Of a stretch of 34,170 nt of DNA, positions 13,593-34,090 are shown one piece after another. Numbering within the stretch: position 1 is the first letter of the stretch; each line of letters starts with the position of its first letter. The DNA is from Micropruina sp. (GTDB lineage: Bacteria > Actinomycetota > Actinomycetes > Propionibacteriales > Propionibacteriaceae), in assembly GCA_018055925.1 (NCBI GenBank), contig JAGPGQ010000010.1:1-34170 (forward strand), read 5' to 3'. A program made the translations under genes and the position numbers. Below the pieces are notes generated by a model. The model had not been told where the DNA came from. It searched no databases and saw only the letters and a list, made by a program, of their open reading frames with translations.

Positions 13593-14708
13593 ATGGCGAC
13601 GACACGAGAGCGAGCGCAGGCGGCGCGGGAGGCGAAGCTCGATGAGCTGCACAAGCGCCTGACCGGGGCGGTCGAACACCTCGTCTCCGGTGAGGACTGG
13701 TCGCGCGCGCTCGCATTCGCGGCACAGTTCAGGGCCAGATCGTTCTCAAACACCCTGCTGATCTGGGACCAACATCAGGGTGCCTACGAGCAGGGTCGGG
13801 TTCCGGGGCCGTTCCCGTCGTATGTGGCCGGCTACAAGCAGTGGCAGACACTCGGCCGGCAGGTGGAGAAGGGCCAGCCCGGCTATCAGATTCTCGCTCC
13901 CGTGACGGGCCGGTTTGCCTCGGCGAACCCTGCGGATGCGGAGTCTTGGCGGCGTCTTGGGAAGGGTGAGAAGCCGCGTGCCGGTGAGGTGGTGCGCTCC
14001 AAGATGGTGGGCGTCCGCCCGGCCTATGTGTGGGACGCCTCGCAGACCTCTGGTGACCCGATCCCCGAGCCCCCAGCACCAAACTTGCTGGAAGGCGAGG
14101 CGCCCGCGGGGTTGTGGGACGGCCTCTCTGAGCAGGTGGAGGCGGCCGGGTTCGCGGTGCTGCGGGTGCCGCATGCGGGGATGATCGACGGTGCGAACGG
14201 GATGACCGACTACTCCGCGAACACGGTCGCGGTGCGGGAGGACATGGACCCCGCCGCGCAGGTCAAGACCCTCGCTCATGAACTCGGCCATGTCCTGCTC
14301 CACGGTCCCGACCAGGAGGAGGCGCGGCAGCATCGCGGGATCGGTGAGGTCGAGGCCGAGTCCGTCGCTTTGATGGTCGGCGCCGCCCACGGGATGGACA
14401 CCTCCGGTTACACGATCCCGTACGTCTCCACCTGGGCCGCTCGGGTGGATGGCAAGGAGCCGGTGGAGGTGGTCAAGGCCACCGGGGAGCGGGTCCGCAA
14501 GACCGCCCTGGCGATCCTGGACCGACTCGACACCGCGCAGGTCGGTGACGGCACTCCACCTGGCTTGGAGCGGGACACGGCCCACCGCGAGGTAGCCGTA
14601 CATGCGCGACCGGCAGCCGAGCCGACTTCGCCGCGGCGGGTGGCGTCGTTGCCTGAACCAGGTGCACGCTCCGTACCGGTGCCGGCGTTCGAGGCGCGGG
14701 GGCTGTGA
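13593..14708 (+). CDS. ardC: ArdC-like antirestriction protein
   Basis: 371 residues. The N-terminal ssDNA-binding domain of ArdC is recognisable by FSNTLLIWDQHQGAYEQGRVP and VAGYKQWQTLGRQVEKGQPG (residues about 50-100). The C-terminal part is a zincin-like metallopeptidase with TLAHELGHVLLHG (HELGH at 229-233) and the downstream EVEAESVALMV that supplies the third metal ligand. ArdC proteins protect entering single-stranded DNA from host restriction during conjugation; proteolysis by the zincin domain is possible but unproven here. First gene of the ICE operon; GGGAGG precedes the ATG. The last 50 residues are Pro/Arg-rich. Confidence 0.93.
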   Translation: MATTRERAQAAREAKLDELHKRLTGAVEHLVSGEDWSRALAFAAQFRARSFSNTLLIWDQHQGAYEQGRVPGPFPSYVAGYKQWQTLGRQVEKGQPGYQILAPVTGRFASANPADAESWRRLGKGEKPRAGEVVRSKMVGVRPAYVWDASQTSGDPIPEPPAPNLLEGEAPAGLWDGLSEQVEAAGFAVLRVPHAGMIDGANGMTDYSANTVAVREDMDPAAQVKTLAHELGHVLLHGPDQEEARQHRGIGEVEAESVALMVGAAHGMDTSGYTIPYVSTWAARVDGKEPVEVVKATGERVRKTALAILDRLDTAQVGDGTPPGLERDTAHREVAVHARPAAEPTSPRRVASLPEPGARSVPVPAFEARGL

Positions 14709-15679
14709 TGGCCGAGCACGGCGCCGTCTCCTCGGTCCTGCTTCGGATGAACGGGTCATGGCCGCTGTCGGCAGCCGCGCGCGAGTTCGCGGCTGCGGGC
14801 GTGCCGGTCTTCCCATGCACCTCGTATGGGAAGCGGCCGGCGACCGAGCACGGCTTCCACGACGCCACCACCAACCTGGATCAGATTGAGGCGTGGTGGC
14901 GGCAGTCGCCGGGGGCGAACATCGGCGTCCCGACCGGCGCCGCCTCGGGCGCGGTCGTGGTGGATGTCGATGTGCACGGCCCGGTCGATGGTCGCGCCAG
15001 CTTCGACCGTGCCCACCGCGCCGGGCTGGTGCACGGGTGGGAGCTGCTGGTGCGCACGCCCACCGGCGGGATGCACGCCTACTACCCGGCCACGCCCGGC
15101 TCGGAGCAGCGGTCGTGGCAGGCGGCTCGCGCGGGGATCGACTTCCGCGGCGACGGCGGCTACATCATCGTCCCGCCCTCGACCTGCTCCATCGAGGGCA
15201 CCACAAGCGGGTACCAGGTCGAGCAGGTCAACACCGGCCCCGCCCGCGTCCTAGACGCGCAGCGGCTGCGGGACTTCCTCGACCCCCACCCCACACCGAG
15301 CCGTCCTGCGTCTGGCGGTGTGGATCGGGACGCCGATGTGGACGTGTCCCGGTTGGCGGCGTGGGTCGCCGCCCGTGGTGAAGGTGAGCGGAACCGTGGC
15401 CTGTTCTGGGCCGCGTGCCGCCTCGCGGAGAACGGGCTCCCCGCCTCGGATGCGCTGGATGTGCTGACCGCGGCCGCCAGTCACGCTGGGCTCGCCGAGC
15501 GCGAGATCGTCACCACGGTCCGTTCCGCCTACCGCACCGTCCACCCCGCACCTGCCCGGCGTGGCGCGCGCGATGGGTCGTCACCGGTGCGGGGTTCGTC
15601 GCCGCTGGCCGCGGACGGCTGGTTCAACCGTGATCCCGCTCGCCCGTCAACCGAGTCATCAAGGGTGTGGGGGTTGTGA
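14708..15679 (+). CDS. Bifunctional DNA primase/polymerase (prim-pol)
   Basis: 323 residues. The prim-pol domain (about residues 20-200) contains the fold start AAAREFAAAGVPVFPC, a lysine-containing GKRPATEHGFHDAT block, the catalytic VVVDVDVHG (Asp86, Asp88), the TPTGGMHAYYP strand and GIDFRGDGGYIIVPPS. These proteins synthesise primers or copy DNA on plasmids and ICEs; no helicase is fused to this one. A helical domain (GERNRGLFWAACRLAENGLP) follows. ATG 14708 overlaps the ardC stop; GTG 14705 is an alternative. The stop overlaps the next ATG. Confidence 0.9.
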   Translation: MAEHGAVSSVLLRMNGSWPLSAAAREFAAAGVPVFPCTSYGKRPATEHGFHDATTNLDQIEAWWRQSPGANIGVPTGAASGAVVVDVDVHGPVDGRASFDRAHRAGLVHGWELLVRTPTGGMHAYYPATPGSEQRSWQAARAGIDFRGDGGYIIVPPSTCSIEGTTSGYQVEQVNTGPARVLDAQRLRDFLDPHPTPSRPASGGVDRDADVDVSRLAAWVAARGEGERNRGLFWAACRLAENGLPASDALDVLTAAASHAGLAEREIVTTVRSAYRTVHPAPARRGARDGSSPVRGSSPLAADGWFNRDPARPSTESSRVWGL

Positions 15680-17735: not shown

Positions 17736-18751
17736 GTTTCGATCCGGGACACATCGAGCTGGAGTGGACGGTCGAGTCCATCCGGGTCGGCCGGCGGCAC
17801 CGCACCGAGCTGGGCGACATCGACGAACTCGCCGCCTCCATCGAACGCGACGGACTGCTGCAACCCATCACCGTCACCCCGGACGGCGTGCTCGTCTGCG
17901 GAGCGCGTCGGCTCGCGGCGATCAAGCGGCTTGGGGAGAAGAAGGTCAACGTGTGGGTCCGTTCCGGACTCTCCGACCGACTCGGACAGCTCCTGGCCGA
18001 ACAGGACGACAACATGCTCCACAAACCGCTCACCCAGCGCGAGGCCGCCGCCCTGTACCGGGAGCTGAAGCAGGTCATGGCCGAAGACGCCGCCCGCCGC
18101 AAGGTCTCCACGCAGTTCAGCAGCGACTACCAGCCGGGGAGTGACGGTCCCGCAAATTTTGCGGGACCGTCAACCGCTTTGGGGGACTCGCGTGAACAGG
18201 CGGCGGCGATGGTCCCCGGCGGCGCCTCGCACACGACCCTAGAGAAGATCGGCTACCTCGAACATCTCGCCGCCGACCCCGCCCAACCCGAGAGCCTGCG
18301 CGCTGAGGCACAGGCGGGGCTGGAGCGGATCGAGGCCGGAGCCCCGGTGCATCCCATCTACCTGGCGGTTCGCGACGCGGCGATCGCTGCGCAGGGCGCG
18401 CGGGAGGCCGATCTACATCAGATGGCCGACGAGGCCGTCGCCCGCGCCACTGCCGCCAAGAAGCAGAAGGGCAAGCAGCCGGTGCCGCGCCCGGTGCCGC
18501 TGACCGGTGTCGATGGGGAGCCGGTGCGGTATCCGGTGCGGGCGTTCATCCACACCTGGGGCGAGCTGACCGAGTGGTGGACCCACTACGACCCCGACCA
18601 GCTCGCCGCCGAACTCACCGACGAGCAGATCGCGGGCTTCCTGGACACCGCCGAAGGCACCAGCCGGTTCGCCGAGGAGCTGCGCGCCGCCCGCGACCGC
18701 CGGGCAGCCGACGATGCCCCCGCGGCGCGGGGGCATCTGCGCGCCCTCTGA
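17732..18751 (+). CDS. ParB/RepB/Spo0J family partition-like protein
   Basis: 339 residues from GTG 17732, overlapping the upstream stop. The ParB N-terminal nuclease/CTPase-like domain covers residues 1-95: IRVGRRHRTELGDIDELAASIERDGLLQPITVTPDGVLVCGARRLAAIKRLGEKKV, the last part corresponding to the GxRR(L/W)xA box. TQREAAALYRELKQV follows. The centre (residues 130-150) is variable and contains the peptide DGPANFAGPS, encoded by a perfect 31-bp palindrome. No ParA lies beside it, so it may act as a replication or transfer regulator rather than a classic segregation protein. Confidence 0.88.
   Translation: MSFDPGHIELEWTVESIRVGRRHRTELGDIDELAASIERDGLLQPITVTPDGVLVCGARRLAAIKRLGEKKVNVWVRSGLSDRLGQLLAEQDDNMLHKPLTQREAAALYRELKQVMAEDAARRKVSTQFSSDYQPGSDGPANFAGPSTALGDSREQAAAMVPGGASHTTLEKIGYLEHLAADPAQPESLRAEAQAGLERIEAGAPVHPIYLAVRDAAIAAQGAREADLHQMADEAVARATAAKKQKGKQPVPRPVPLTGVDGEPVRYPVRAFIHTWGELTEWWTHYDPDQLAAELTDEQIAGFLDTAEGTSRFAEELRAARDRRAADDAPAARGHLRAL
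18142..18172. repeat. Perfect 31-bp palindrome inside the parB-like gene
   Basis: Two 15-bp arms, TGACGGTCCCGCAAA and its exact complement TTTGCGGGACCGTCA, flank a single T. The site lies within codons of residues 137-147. I see no other copy in the window. It does not resemble the known Spo0J parS site. It may be the binding site of this ParB-like protein, a replication or transfer signal, or an inserted short palindromic element kept in frame. Confidence 0.85.
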
Positions 18752-28209: not shown

Positions 28210-28790
28210 AGGGCCGCAACCCGCTGCACCACACCCCGTCCCAGCAGCCCGACGAGACACCGGTGGCGCTGCCACACGTCGTCATCACTGTCACTGAGAA
28301 CGGCGCCCTGAACGTCACCGTCGACGGCACGCCGTTCCCGTCACCTTCCGCGGGTTCGGAGTGGACACGGGGCACCTTCGGGCCGCTGCTGGACGCGGTA
28401 ACCCACGATCGCACCGTAGCGGTGCGGATCGAGGTCCGCGAGGTCGACGGGACCGTGTTCACCGACCTCATCCGCGCCCGCAAACCCACCCCACCACCAC
28501 CCGACGACGAACCGGCCGGGCCGGGGACGCAGCGTTCACGCCGCGCCAAGCACACCACGCAGCACGAGCCTCCGGTGCTGATTGAGGTCACCGGGGACGG
28601 GTTCGTGCCCGGTGAGGACATCGCCGTCGCCGTGATCGTCGCCCACACCGACGCCACCGGCACCGGGGCCGCCCGAGCCCTGCTCGACCAGCAACAGCTC
28701 GACGCCGCGCTGCCTGAGGGCGACGACGCGGGCGAGGCGGTGCTCTACGGGCGTATCTCCGGCACGATCGTGGTCAGGCGGGTGCCGTGA
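28206..28790 (+). CDS. Hypothetical protein between VirB4 and VirD4
   Basis: 194 residues, overlapping both neighbours (ATGA and GTGA). The two beta-rich stretches (LPHVVITVTENGALNVTVDGTPFPSP and PPVLIEVTGDGFVPGEDIAVAVIVAHTDATGTG) are joined by a Pro/Arg-rich linker. No membrane helix and no known motif. Strict coupling to the two ATPases suggests a transfer accessory protein. Confidence 0.78.
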   Translation: MKGRNPLHHTPSQQPDETPVALPHVVITVTENGALNVTVDGTPFPSPSAGSEWTRGTFGPLLDAVTHDRTVAVRIEVREVDGTVFTDLIRARKPTPPPPDDEPAGPGTQRSRRAKHTTQHEPPVLIEVTGDGFVPGEDIAVAVIVAHTDATGTGAARALLDQQQLDAALPEGDDAGEAVLYGRISGTIVVRRVP

Positions 28791-30574
28791 GCAGCCCGCA
28801 GGGCCGGCAGGCCGGGTCGTTCGGGGACGAGCTGACCAACGCCGCCCTGATCGGGCTGGTCGGCATGTTCGGCGTCGCGCTCATCCTGCGCGCATCAGGC
28901 AGCGTGGCCGCGTTCCTCACCGGCACCAACCAGCCCGCCGCGGGACCGGCGTCGGGGCTCGGGGTGCTGTTCAACCCCGCCGACCCCGCCGCCGCGCTCG
29001 ACGCCGCAGGGTTGAACCCGGTCGTCTACTGGATCGTCACCGGCCTCCTGCTCGCGGGCCTGTGCGTCGGTGGCGGGTGGGTGTGGGTGTGGCTGCGCCG
29101 TCACACCCGCAAGACCGAGACCGACCCCCGCCGCCTGGCCGGCACCGCCACCGGCCACGAAGTCAGTCAAACCGCCTCCGGCAAGGCACTGCTGCGCCGC
29201 GCCGGCACACTGCGCCCCTCCGTGGAGCAACCCTCACCAGGCGATGTCGGGTACCTGCTCGGCACCAGCCACGGCAAACAGGTGTGGGCATCGGTGGAGG
29301 ACTCGATCCTGCTGCTCGGCCCACCCCGGTCAGGCAAGGGCCTGCACGTGGTCATCAATGCCATCTTGGATGCGCCGGGAGCGGTCGTGACCACGTCAAC
29401 GCGGCCGGACAACCTCACCGCCACCCTGAAAGCCCGAGCGCGGGACGGGCGGCCGGTGGGAGTGTTCGACCCCCAGCACCTCGCCGAAGGCGTCCCCGCC
29501 GGCCTGCGGTGGTCCCCGGTGCGGGGGTGTGAGGACCCGTTGACGGCGATGATCCGCGCCACCGGCCTCGCCGCCTCCACCGGCCTGTCTTACGGCGGTG
29601 TCGAGTCGGGCGGGTTCTGGGAAGGCAAGACCCGCACCGCTCTCCAAGCCCTGCTGCACGCCGCCGCTCTGGACGGCCGGCCGCCGGCCGAGCTGTTCCG
29701 GTGGACCCTGGACCCCTCCATCGCGGCCGAAGCCGTCGCCGTCCTCACGAACCACCCCGGCGCAGCCACCGGATGGGCCGACTCCCTCGGCGCGATGATC
29801 GACTCCGACCCCAAGACGCGCGACTCCATCTGGCAAGGCGTCTCCCTCGCCCTCTCAGCATTGGCCGACCCGCGCGTCCTCGACGCGGTGACTGCTCGCG
29901 AGGGCGAGGACTTCGACCCCGAAGCCTTCCTCCAACAGCGCGGGACCCTGTTTCTCTTGGCGACGGGTGCGGGTGCCGGGGCGTCCGCGTCCCTCGTGGC
30001 CGCGTTCGTGGAAGACCTCGTGGAAGCCGCCCGCCGCCTCGCCGCCCGCTCACCGGGTGCCCGGCTCGACCCGCCCCTGCTGCTCGCCCTGGACGAGATC
30101 GCCAACCTCTCACCGTTGCCGTCGCTGCCGACGCTGATGGCCGAGGGCGGCGGCACCGGCATCACCTGCCTCCCCGTCTTGCAGTCCCTCGCACAAGCGC
30201 GGGAGAAGTGGGGCGACAACGCCGCCGGCGCGATCTGGGATGCCTCCATCGTCAAGATCATCCTCGGCGGCGCCTCCAACTCCCGCGACCTCCAAGACCT
30301 CTCCTCGCTGATCGGCGAACGGGACGAGTACACCGATTCGGTGACCCTCGGCGACCACGGCACCAGATCGAACCAACGCTCCATCAGAAGGGTGCCGATC
30401 CTCCCGCCCGACCGCATCCGCACCCTGCCCTTTGGCACCGGCGTCACCCTGCTGCGGTCCGCCCCGCCGATCGTGACCGGCCTGCGGCCCTGGCCGACAC
30501 GCCCCAACTCCGCCCAGCTCGGCACGGACGGCGCGGCCATCGAGGCGCTGCTGCGTCGCCCCGCCGACACCTGA
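28787..30574 (+). CDS. VirD4/TraG-type coupling ATPase
   Basis: 595 residues from GTG 28787. Two membrane segments (about 20-45 and 82-107) anchor it. Walker A is GPPRSGKGLHVVIN (about 178-191), followed by APGAVVTTSTRPDNL as in TraG/VirD4 proteins; Walker B is LLLALDEIANLSPLPSLP (about 428-445), and GGTGITCLPVLQSLAQAREKWG and KIILGGASNSRDLQDLSSLIGE are further family blocks. It would bring the relaxase-DNA complex to the channel, although no relaxase is encoded in the window. Confidence 0.95.
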   Translation: MSSPQGRQAGSFGDELTNAALIGLVGMFGVALILRASGSVAAFLTGTNQPAAGPASGLGVLFNPADPAAALDAAGLNPVVYWIVTGLLLAGLCVGGGWVWVWLRRHTRKTETDPRRLAGTATGHEVSQTASGKALLRRAGTLRPSVEQPSPGDVGYLLGTSHGKQVWASVEDSILLLGPPRSGKGLHVVINAILDAPGAVVTTSTRPDNLTATLKARARDGRPVGVFDPQHLAEGVPAGLRWSPVRGCEDPLTAMIRATGLAASTGLSYGGVESGGFWEGKTRTALQALLHAAALDGRPPAELFRWTLDPSIAAEAVAVLTNHPGAATGWADSLGAMIDSDPKTRDSIWQGVSLALSALADPRVLDAVTAREGEDFDPEAFLQQRGTLFLLATGAGAGASASLVAAFVEDLVEAARRLAARSPGARLDPPLLLALDEIANLSPLPSLPTLMAEGGGTGITCLPVLQSLAQAREKWGDNAAGAIWDASIVKIILGGASNSRDLQDLSSLIGERDEYTDSVTLGDHGTRSNQRSIRRVPILPPDRIRTLPFGTGVTLLRSAPPIVTGLRPWPTRPNSAQLGTDGAAIEALLRRPADT

Positions 30575-31704: not shown

Positions 31705-31949
31705 CCGGCCGGGCTTCCCGCGACAGGGATGAGCGGCTGCCGGAGAGGATGCGGGATTACCGGATCGAGGCCGAGCCGCGGCAGAGCCCAGACCTGCACA
31801 AGCTCGTCCAACTGTTCATCGGCATGGCCCGCTCCCGCGCCGAGCAGGACCGCACCACGCCCGCGACGGACGCCGACACCGTCCTGCCGGCCTCAGAGCA
31901 ATGTCGGGACGGCGAGGTAGAATCAGAAGCGCAAGAAGCCAACGGCTGA
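31701..31949 (+). CDS. Small hypothetical protein before the recombinase
   Basis: 82 residues from GTG 31701, translationally coupled to the DUF4913 gene. Very charged (ASRDRDERLPERMRDYRIEAEPRQSPDLHKLVQLFIGMARSRAEQ); one amphipathic helix around residues 32-48. No family recognised. Position and charge would suit a recombination directionality factor or small DNA-binding protein, but no helix-turn-helix is visible. Confidence 0.65.
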   Translation: MTGRASRDRDERLPERMRDYRIEAEPRQSPDLHKLVQLFIGMARSRAEQDRTTPATDADTVLPASEQCRDGEVESEAQEANG

Positions 31950-31998
31950 GCTTTCGGGCTTGGTCGTGGTGCGCAGTCCTGTTTGGCCTTCGTGGCTT

Positions 31999-32028
31999 AC
32001 CCGGCCGGCTCCTTCGGAGCTGCCGGGT
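31999..32028 (+). terminator. Strong hairpin in the recombinase leader
   Basis: A 13-bp stem with one bulge and a TTC loop: ACCCGGC pairs with GCCGGGT and GGCTCC with GGAGCT. It lies in the 164-bp gap before the recombinase and is followed by TCGTGTTTCCCC, a poor T-run. It may end the long transfer transcript or attenuate recombinase expression. Confidence 0.5.
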
Positions 32029-32113
32029 CGTGTTTCCCCATTACGAGTCGCACCGCACCAGCGGTAGCCGCCGCTCGTGCTGGCCCCGACCACCGGGGAA
32101 GGGAACACGACCC

Positions 32114-34090
32114 ATGACCGCCACGACCACTGCACAGCAGCCACCCGCCGCCACCGCGCTCGATCGCATCGGCGAGACCACCACACTCGCCGTCTCCTAC
32201 CTGCGCGTGTCAACCAAAGAGCAGGCCTCCAAGGGCGGACGGGACGAGGGCTTCTCGATCCCCGCTCAGCGCGAGGCGAACCTGCGCAAGGCCCGCGAGC
32301 TGAACGCGATCATCACCGAGGAGTTCGTCGACGCCGGCGAGTCCGCCCGCAAGGCCGACCGGCCCGAGCTGATGCGGATGATCGAGTACGTCAAGACCCA
32401 CCAGGTCGCCTACTGCATTGTTCACAAGGTCGACCGGCTCGCCCGCAACCGCGCCGACGACGTGACCATCCACCTCGCCCTCAAAGAGGCCGGGGTCATG
32501 CTCGTCTCCGCGACCGAGAACATCGACGAGACCCCGTCCGGGATGCTGCTGCACGGCATCATGTCCACCATCGCGGAGTTCTACTCCCGGAACCTCGCCG
32601 GCGAGGTCTCCAAGGGCATGAACCAGAAAGCCCAGGGTGGCGGGACCAACGGCAAGGCCCCGATGGGCTACCTCAACGTCACCAAGCGTGACGAACTCGG
32701 CCGCGAGGTCCGCACCGTCGAAGTCGACCCCGACCGGGCACCACTGATCACGTGGGCCTTCGAGGCCTACGCCACCGGGAACTACTCCACGATCAGCCTG
32801 CGCGAGGAACTCATCGACCGGGGCCTGACCACCGTGCCGACCCCGAAGCGGCCCTCCAAGCCGCCGGTGCTGTCCACGATCCACAAGATGCTCACCAACC
32901 CCTACTACAAGGGCAGCGTCCGCTTCCGCGGTGCCAGCTACGACGGCCTGCACGAACCGCTGGTCGCGCCCGAGGTCTGGTACCGCGTCCAGGCGGTGCT
33001 CACCGCGCACCAGACCTCCGGGGAGAAGACCCAGTCCCATGACCACTACCTGAAAGGCAGCCTGTACTGCGGGCAGTGCGGGTCCCGGCTGACGCTGACC
33101 AACGCCAAGAGCCGCCGCGGCGTCATCTACCCGTACTTCATGTGCACCGGCCGGCACGCCCGCCGCACCAACTGCGAACGCAAGTCCATGTTCGTGCCCG
33201 ACATCGAAGCCGCCGTCGAGGACTACTACCGCCACGTCCAGATACCCGAACACGTCGTCACCGCGCTGCGCGAGCTGGTCACCAGTGAGTTCGACCGACT
33301 GCACCAGGTCGCCAAGCACGAGGCCCAGGGGTACAAGGCAGAACGCGACGCGCTCCGTGACGAGCGCACCAAGCTCATGCAGGCTCATTACGCCGGAGCC
33401 GTGCCCCTCGACCTGCTCGGCACCGAGCAGGACCGCATCGCGCGGCGGCTCGCGTTCCTCGACGCGCAGATCAACGCCGGCGACATCGAGTACGACCAAG
33501 CCAAAGCCCACCTGGACGACTGCCTCGCCCTCGCCGGGGACATGCACGCCATCTACATGAGCATCGACGATTCGCTCCGCAGGATCGCCAACCAAGCCTT
33601 CTTCGACAAGCTCATCGTCACTGATGACGACGCCATCCACGGCGAACCCGGCGTCCCGTTCAACGTGTTCCTCGACCGCGACGTCCAGACCCTCGCCGTC
33701 CGCCAACAGGGACGGACGGCGGAATCTGGAACTCAAACCGGTGATGTCGTTGGTTTGAACAACGACCTTCTGGTGGAGCTAAGGGGATTCGAACCCCTGA
33801 CCTTCTCATTGCGAACGAGACGCGCTACCAACTGCGCCATAGCCCCATGCCCGAAAGCGAAGATGAGCATACCACCGCCCCGGCAGCCCCAAGAAATCGA
33901 GAAATCACGACAGGGAGGATGTATCACCCCCTCCCCCTGTTGGCTCCTGTCGCCGTGGTGTTGGATCAGATCATGCACGGGCAGCCCCCCGCCGAAGCGT
34001 CGGCGACCCTGTGGAACCGCGCGGCCGAGGCGCACTCCCGCTGGCGCGGGGGTGACCGTTCCGCGCTCGACGACCTCGTCCGCACGCTGA
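32114..34090 (+). CDS. Large serine recombinase, frame runs through tRNA-Ala
   Basis: Site-specific recombinase for integration and excision. The start ATG 32114 gives 658 residues. The resolvase-type catalytic domain begins TLAVSYLRVSTKEQ (catalytic Ser33) and includes VHKVDRLARNRADD and IMSTIAEFYSRNLAGEV; the recombinase domain (GKAPMGYLNVTKRD ... LSTIHKMLTNPYYKG) and a zinc ribbon (LYCGQCGSRLTLTN ... FMCTGRHARRTNCERK) follow, then a coiled coil. From residue about 554 the frame reads the antisense strand of tRNA-Ala (LVELRGFEPLTFSLRTRRATNCAIAP) and then chromosomal DNA to 34090. The natural end in the excised circle must differ. The last 80 residues are almost certainly a junction product. 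Confidence 0.9.
   Translation: MTATTTAQQPPAATALDRIGETTTLAVSYLRVSTKEQASKGGRDEGFSIPAQREANLRKARELNAIITEEFVDAGESARKADRPELMRMIEYVKTHQVAYCIVHKVDRLARNRADDVTIHLALKEAGVMLVSATENIDETPSGMLLHGIMSTIAEFYSRNLAGEVSKGMNQKAQGGGTNGKAPMGYLNVTKRDELGREVRTVEVDPDRAPLITWAFEAYATGNYSTISLREELIDRGLTTVPTPKRPSKPPVLSTIHKMLTNPYYKGSVRFRGASYDGLHEPLVAPEVWYRVQAVLTAHQTSGEKTQSHDHYLKGSLYCGQCGSRLTLTNAKSRRGVIYPYFMCTGRHARRTNCERKSMFVPDIEAAVEDYYRHVQIPEHVVTALRELVTSEFDRLHQVAKHEAQGYKAERDALRDERTKLMQAHYAGAVPLDLLGTEQDRIARRLAFLDAQINAGDIEYDQAKAHLDDCLALAGDMHAIYMSIDDSLRRIANQAFFDKLIVTDDDAIHGEPGVPFNVFLDRDVQTLAVRQQGRTAESGTQTGDVVGLNNDLLVELRGFEPLTFSLRTRRATNCAIAPCPKAKMSIPPPRQPQEIEKSRQGGCITPSPCWLLSPWCWIRSCTGSPPPKRRRPCGTARPRRTPAGAGVTVPRSTTSSAR
33733..33766. 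other. Nested inverted repeats, candidate right attachment site
   Basis: TCAAACC (33733-33739) / GGTTTGA (33752-33758) and GTCGTTG (33746-33752) / CAACGAC (33760-33766) overlap each other just before the tRNA 3' end. Serine integrases use sites of roughly 40-50 bp with imperfect symmetry, so crossover in or near this stretch is plausible. No matching left site was found. Confidence 0.4.
33774..33846 (-). tRNA. tRNA-Ala(CGC)
   Basis: 73 nt on the minus strand without encoded CCA. Acceptor GGGGCTA pairs with TAGCTCC, the discriminator is A. D arm GCGC/GCGC with AGTTGGTA loop, anticodon stem TCTCG/TGAGA with loop TTCGCAA (anticodon CGC, reading GCG), T arm AGGGG-TTCGAAT-CCCCT. All stems are intact, so the gene is functional after integration. 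Its 3' end faces the recombinase. Confidence 0.96.

Follow-up and report, generated by a model that had tools for sequence, protein, structure and literature searches.

The 31-bp perfect palindrome that lies in frame within a parB-like gene of a Micropruina sp. conjugative element is very probably a parS-like site that the product of this same gene recognises, to judge from the way in which site and protein vary together. The palindrome, TGACGGTCCCGCAAA-T-TTTGCGGGACCGTCA, has two perfect 15-bp arms around a single central base and was found in the window, by which we mean the whole 34,170-nucleotide stretch of DNA analysed here (Table 1). Its position, symmetry and reading frame are exactly those given in the initial annotation, which had also considered it extremely unlikely to arise by chance. 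We agree: at the base composition of the window, 1.8e-4 (about 0.0002) perfect 15-1-15 dyads are expected per 34 kb, and the runner-up among its perfect palindromes has 12-bp arms. The two strands encode nearly the same peptide, as had been pointed out (DGPANFAGPS in the gene and DGPAKFAGPS opposite), because the dyad axis falls on a third codon base and third bases oppose third bases. Searches with the half-site and the 23-bp core, allowing up to 3 mismatches, hit a single location in the assembly (3.95 Mb, ~89% complete).

Table 1. Coordinates, in the window, of the palindrome, of the gene that holds it and of selected genes of the element.
Feature	Position	Strand	Remarks
31-bp perfect palindrome	18142..18172	.	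one-base centre 18157
Core half-site, p12 to p1, CGGTCCCGCAAA	18145..18156		mirror half 18158..18169
ParB-like gene, 339 aa	17732..18751	+	GTG start; 4-bp overlap with upstream gene
ParB N-terminal (CTPase-fold) domain, residues 22-78	17795..17965	+	Pfam; motif residues Q44, G57, R59, R60
Codon of K124	18101..18103	+	covaries with p9 (and p8)
Linker, residues 128-152, encoding the palindrome	18113..18187	+	predicted disordered
Codons of D152, S153 and R154, start of HTH	18185..18193	+	D152 covaries with p6 and p7; R154 with p6
First HTH helix, residues 153-159	18188..18208	+	predicted
Recognition helix, residues 167-181	18230..18274	+	H167 and T168 covary with p4; T169 and K172 with p2
Prim-Pol/PriCT primase-polymerase gene	14705..15679	+	replication context of the element
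TraG/TraD-type conjugation coupling protein	28787..30574	+
Large serine recombinase (integrase)	31901..34090	+

Homologues of the ParB-like gene came from 207 loci, representing 171 distinct genes. Relatives occur in Knoellia, Brevibacterium, Microbacterium, Arthrobacter, Rhodococcus, Gordonia, Dietzia, Nesterenkonia, Actinomyces and others, and an identical protein is encoded on a contig of a Humibacillus metagenome assembly. A dyad of 25–35 bp lies at the same place in 163/171 distinct genes, with identical phase in 163/163. The other 8 have a dyad score <8; some of these genes are broken, some dyads are imperfect, and one gene (L128) has two palindromes elsewhere along its length. The site itself is diverse, with 63 distinct 12-base half-sites and 108 distinct 29-mers. 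The initial annotation had named close homologues with the same amino acids and no palindrome as the observation that would count against it; we saw the opposite, namely homologues that retain the palindrome though both sequence and peptide change. It had also called this part of the protein poorly conserved. The linker is indeed length-variable and predicted to be disordered, but judged by these alignments it is strongly constrained as DNA.

For each position of the half-site, we ranked ~300 protein columns by their normalised mutual information with it (sequence-weighted, effective number 67), leaving out the codons that encode the palindrome. The top columns were 172 and then 169 for p2, 168 and then 167 for p4, 163 for p5, 152 for both p6 and p7, and 124 for both p8 and p9; at p6, column 152 scored 0.67 and the best column outside 151–155 scored 0.24. 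On a tree built without the covarying columns, changes in site and residue fell on the same branches in 23/28 cases for p4 and 168 (p 5e-19), 27/38 for p6 and 152 (p 1e-16), 21/32 for p7 and 152 (p 1e-11), 12/15 for p9 and 124 (p 2e-11) and 7/9 for p2 and 172 (p 6e-9). These p-values assume exchangeable branches and serve only to rank a column relative to the others.

The site bases and residues 124, 152, 168, 169 and 172 thus appear to follow an almost deterministic amino-acid-to-base code. C at p6 occurs with Asp/Glu152 (73/73), G at p6 with Arg/Lys152 (18/18) and GT at p7p6 with Lys/Arg152 (62/62). At p4, G is accompanied by Lys, His, Gln or Arg168 in 64 of 66 cases, and C mostly by Thr, Asn, Ala or Ser. 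An A at p2 comes with Thr/Ser169 and with Lys/Arg172 (95/95 each), and a G mostly with Arg169 and Gln172. Position p9 coincides with the silent base of a Gly codon; where that codon is GGT, residue 124 is Lys, Gln or Arg (130/130), with GGG it is mostly Asp or Glu (15/18), and with GGC mostly Met (13/15). Since this silent base predicts residue 124, the coupling would be to DNA and not to peptide; a peptide-level explanation was ruled out on this ground, and the prediction of a residue 14–15 codons away appears best explained at the level of DNA.

The covarying residues lie in and around the predicted HTH of a divergent ParB-like protein. Pfam recognises the ParB N-terminal domain (PF02195) with 27.0 bits, where the cut-off is 26.3, and profile matches include Spo0J (1vz0, E 1e-8), Noc and ParB. 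In comparison with chromosomal ParBs, HHalign gave 97.6% and aligned residues 5–114 alone, leaving the HTH unaligned. The CTP-site motifs (GLLQP, GxRR, (E/D)N) are kept among the 171 distinct genes: Q44 in 168, G57, R59 and R60 in all 171, D/E93 in 171 and N94 in 166, D93 and N94 sitting just beyond the Pfam match. The score for TIGR00180, the ParB/RepB/Spo0J partition protein model, is 38.5 bits, below the 58.45 cut-off; the ParA-binding motif (L/F/I)G(K/R)G(L/F/I) is missing from the protein sequence; and the palindrome is unrelated to the universal parS (GTTTCACGTGAAAC), an exact copy of which lies near the chromosomal parB of the host on contig C66. Because of the sub-threshold TIGR00180 score, the different site and the missing ParA (see below), the protein is, by these profiles, of the ParB-CTPase fold and not a canonical partition ParB.

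An AlphaFold2 model (mean pLDDT 61) places a long helix at 102–127, a disordered loop at 128–152 and helices at 153–159 and 167–181. Model quality was moderate (mean pLDDT 61 and 72), and residue-base contacts are therefore drawn from covariation and not from structure. The top Foldseek match of the model was Noc bound to its site, with low TM-scores; a domain-only model gave no useful fold match, and alignment to the DNA-binding domains of KorB and Spo0J/ParB with VIA-align was weak (Z about 4). In Caulobacter ParB, residues Q162, S172 and R173 contact parS (PMC7383237). By eye, Q156, S166 and H167 would correspond to these, a match that we infer by inspection because the profile comparison aligned the N-terminal domain only.

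The gene belongs to an actinobacterial integrative conjugative element (ICE): to the right of ~13.5 kb in the window, G+C content climbs and the genes are of this kind. The element encodes an ArdC-like protein, the Prim-Pol primase, a DUF2637/HTH protein, the ParB-like protein, an M23 peptidase, a DUF6112 protein, SCO6880/6881-type proteins, the TraG/TraD coupling protein, an SSB-like protein and the large serine recombinase. The ~20 ORFs of the element that were scanned yielded no ParA homologue, which leaves a classic partition role unsupported. Of the earlier suggestion that the palindrome is the centromere of the ParB-like protein and sits in the gene for that protein, the cognate site is thus strongly supported by covariation in two independent data sets (the second being described below), and the centromere role is not, as no ParA was found.

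What we consider the best explanation as a whole, and hold with good confidence, is that the palindrome would be a parS-like site read by its own ParB-like protein, with clamp loading and with maintenance or regulation of the element as the outcome. A dimer would read the palindrome through the HTH encoded ~25 codons downstream, with residue 152 reading p6 and p7, recognition-helix residues 168, 169 and 172 reading p4 to p2, and residue 124 reading p9. By analogy with the ParB family, the most likely consequence of binding would be the loading, at this one site, of a CTP-dependent clamp that then spreads along the element. Least certain are the steps that follow, in which the loaded clamp may maintain or regulate the element without a ParA of its own, and joint change of site and reader may make new compatibility groups. 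As the site lies inside the reader gene, beside the specificity codons, lock and key would travel as one cassette.

Several near-identical pairs of elements differ in the site-reader cassette (L006/L035, L042/L045 and L196/L210). Elements that reside in the same genome shared a site in 2/89 pairs, where 6.3 ± 2.0 were expected by identity bin; these pairs are not independent, so the rarity of shared sites is weak evidence and suggestive only of compatibility groups. The sole site-sharing co-resident pairs are L027 with L044 (genome G001) and L093 with L098 (genome G390); in the former, the linker and HTH peptides are identical and other parts differ. We propose, tentatively, that orphan ParB-like genes of ICEs and phages in several phyla may be self-contained, co-diversifying cassettes with a nearly one-to-one code, creating incompatibility or self-recognition groups so that near-identical elements can share a cell.

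The same reader and site could also serve autoregulation, the bound palindrome acting as a roadblock operator that stops elongation of the gene's transcript, or in co-repression of nearby promoters, with no clamp and no maintenance. The single site lies in the reader's own gene, 0.4 kb downstream of its start codon, and the scanned ORFs hold no ParA; moreover, KorB, VirB and BisD are transcription regulators of the ParB family (for BisD and VirB, see the passages on them in PMC12704722). Against this, a roadblock would not need the CTPase motifs that are kept, and both the rapid diversification of the site and the near-identical co-residents with different sites fit identity or compatibility better. 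Autoregulation as the whole account is therefore possible but rather unlikely; it is compatible with clamp loading at a cognate site, and the two are not exclusive.

Palindromes in the linkers of ParB-like genes extend beyond conjugative elements. A Streptomyces phage-like plasmid (with terminase and head genes) encodes a 35%-identical protein with a 14-1-14 palindrome in the same linker, and linker palindromes also occur in phages of Staphylococcus, Vibrio and Pseudomonas. A viral search with the single ParB-like protein gave no matches, and the phage set of 94 distinct viral loci was found using phage alignments. About half of these loci (41/94) have a strong palindrome 300–600 nt into the gene; 42 palindromes fall in 27.9 kb of linker region versus 32 in 452 kb elsewhere, a 21-fold enrichment.

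We applied to the phage genes the rules from the conjugative elements (C with Asp/Glu, T with Lys/Arg/Thr/Ser, G with Arg/Lys), to which A with Gln/Asn was added from chemistry. The base tested was p6 for odd centres and p7 for even centres, a shift fixed before the tally but after examples had been seen, so that the test is not fully blind. The code fitted 25/29 distinct phage genes, compared with a permutation mean of 9.8 and a maximum of 19 in 50,000 (p<=2e-5), and 21/25 when A was left out; GT occurred with Lys in 9/9 and A with Gln in 4/4. One of the misses, L250, is a motif mispick. In Staphylococcus phages L251, L252, L259 and L260, the palindrome-bearing ParB-like gene comes after a repressor-type gene, and a second ParB-like gene lies downstream in some annotations; in phage 85, the palindrome of the ParB-like gene is imperfect.

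The identity of this code in phages with unrelated neighbours also bears on whether another protein binds the dyad, such as the serine recombinase, a relaxase or a host factor. The element does encode further DNA-binding proteins, but the covarying residues are in the HTH of the gene itself and form chemically sensible pairs (Asp/Glu-C, Arg-G, Gln-A, Lys-GT), and we consider a different binder very improbable.

The pairing of the two arms bears on the remaining readings. Each of p1 to p12 is Watson-Crick paired in 97–108 of the 108 distinct 29-mers, including the innermost pair, p1 (A-T in 86, C-G in 17, G-C in 1). When the peptide was kept and synonymous codons were resampled, arm matches fell from the 11.7/12 observed to 8.8/12. 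One full site per element was counted in 52 sequences, made up of the window and 51 named loci; the exception is L151, with a weak, 4-mismatch additional site. The arms change jointly down to the innermost pair, which rules out an RNA stem as well as a mobile repeat. The predicted RNA fold is strong (−32.2 kcal/mol, z −5.7), as a hairpin acting in attenuation, pausing or stability of the mRNA would require, but no loop could form the innermost pair, which is kept by compensatory change at a one-base centre; moreover, G:T pairs are not enriched (7/43 mismatches, equal to their chance share), and a stem would leave the covariation of site bases with HTH residues unexplained. A hairpin was accordingly rejected on the first two grounds and is very improbable. 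Least credible is the mobile palindromic unit of the initial annotation, or an artefact of mutation in which template switching makes quasi-palindromes perfect: the arms are perfect and two linker palindromes occur in some genes (L072, L128), but there is one copy per element, its place and phase are fixed in 163/163 homologues, it is coupled to distant codons, and perfect palindromes with arms of at least 12 number 34 at this site and 0 elsewhere in 0.92 Mb of flanks of the named loci. L072 and L128 have two dyads each, and in L124 and L126 the palindrome-type peptide is duplicated in tandem in the linker.

A probable cognate site within the reader gene invites comparison with ParB/Spo0J–parS and Noc–NBS, which have in common with the present system a palindromic site and a ParB N-terminal fold that bears CTP-site motifs and is followed by an HTH (here a predicted one). 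Their sites are 16 bp and almost invariant, whereas here the site is 25–35 bp, single, placed in the reader-gene linker and diversifying with the reader; the protein also has an additional, site-holding linker ahead of the HTH, and neither a ParA-binding motif nor a ParA was found. In B. subtilis, one parS lies within spo0J, which is a precedent for the place and not for the co-diversification. KorB (RK2), VirB and BisD (ICEclc) are likewise orphan ParB-like proteins on mobile elements with a site read by an HTH, and the protein described here may act as a clamp-regulator as they do. To our knowledge, no fixed intragenic site of their own with a co-diversifying code has been described for KorB and VirB, and BisD is not known to have one. 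A few residue changes are enough to re-target the site specificity of ParB and Noc (Jalal et al. 2020, PMC7383237). Mobile elements and phages are known to encode orphan ParB-CTPase proteins, a class set out in passages of PMC12704722, and the present protein belongs to it, being divergent, on mobile DNA and without ParA. Those passages are silent on the cognate sites to which orphan ParBs bind, on palindromes within genes and on any recognition code; in the literature searched, mostly outside subscription journals, we came across no account of an orphan ParB whose cognate site lies in its own gene and diversifies with it.

Orphan ParB-like proteins form a large class that has hardly been studied, and these comparisons yield evidence at the level of function from the sequence by itself, each gene displaying its own target. 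With a readable code (Asp/Glu-C, Lys-GT, Arg-G, Gln-A), the targets of many such proteins could be predicted, and many orthogonal ParB/parS pairs would become available for DNA labelling. Such a code also makes it testable why a ParB is retained by mobile elements that lack ParA, and by what means related ICEs and phages discriminate self from non-self.

Other palindromes were also seen. Close to the 3' end of the ParB-like gene lies a 12-1-12 perfect palindrome, GATGCCCCCGCGGCGCGGGGGCATC (18713–18737), absent at that length from the named relatives. The L254:5394 region of a viral contig has AGAGCCTAGGCTCTTGCA-T-TGCTAGAGCCTAGGCTCT, with arms of up to 18 bp and one mismatch, outside the ParB-like gene. 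Finally, viral contigs L216 and L217 encode ParB-like proteins with another linker (ALDxxxITLxxAxxLHKLV) and a short palindrome near it, which may represent another family of the same arrangement, or chance.
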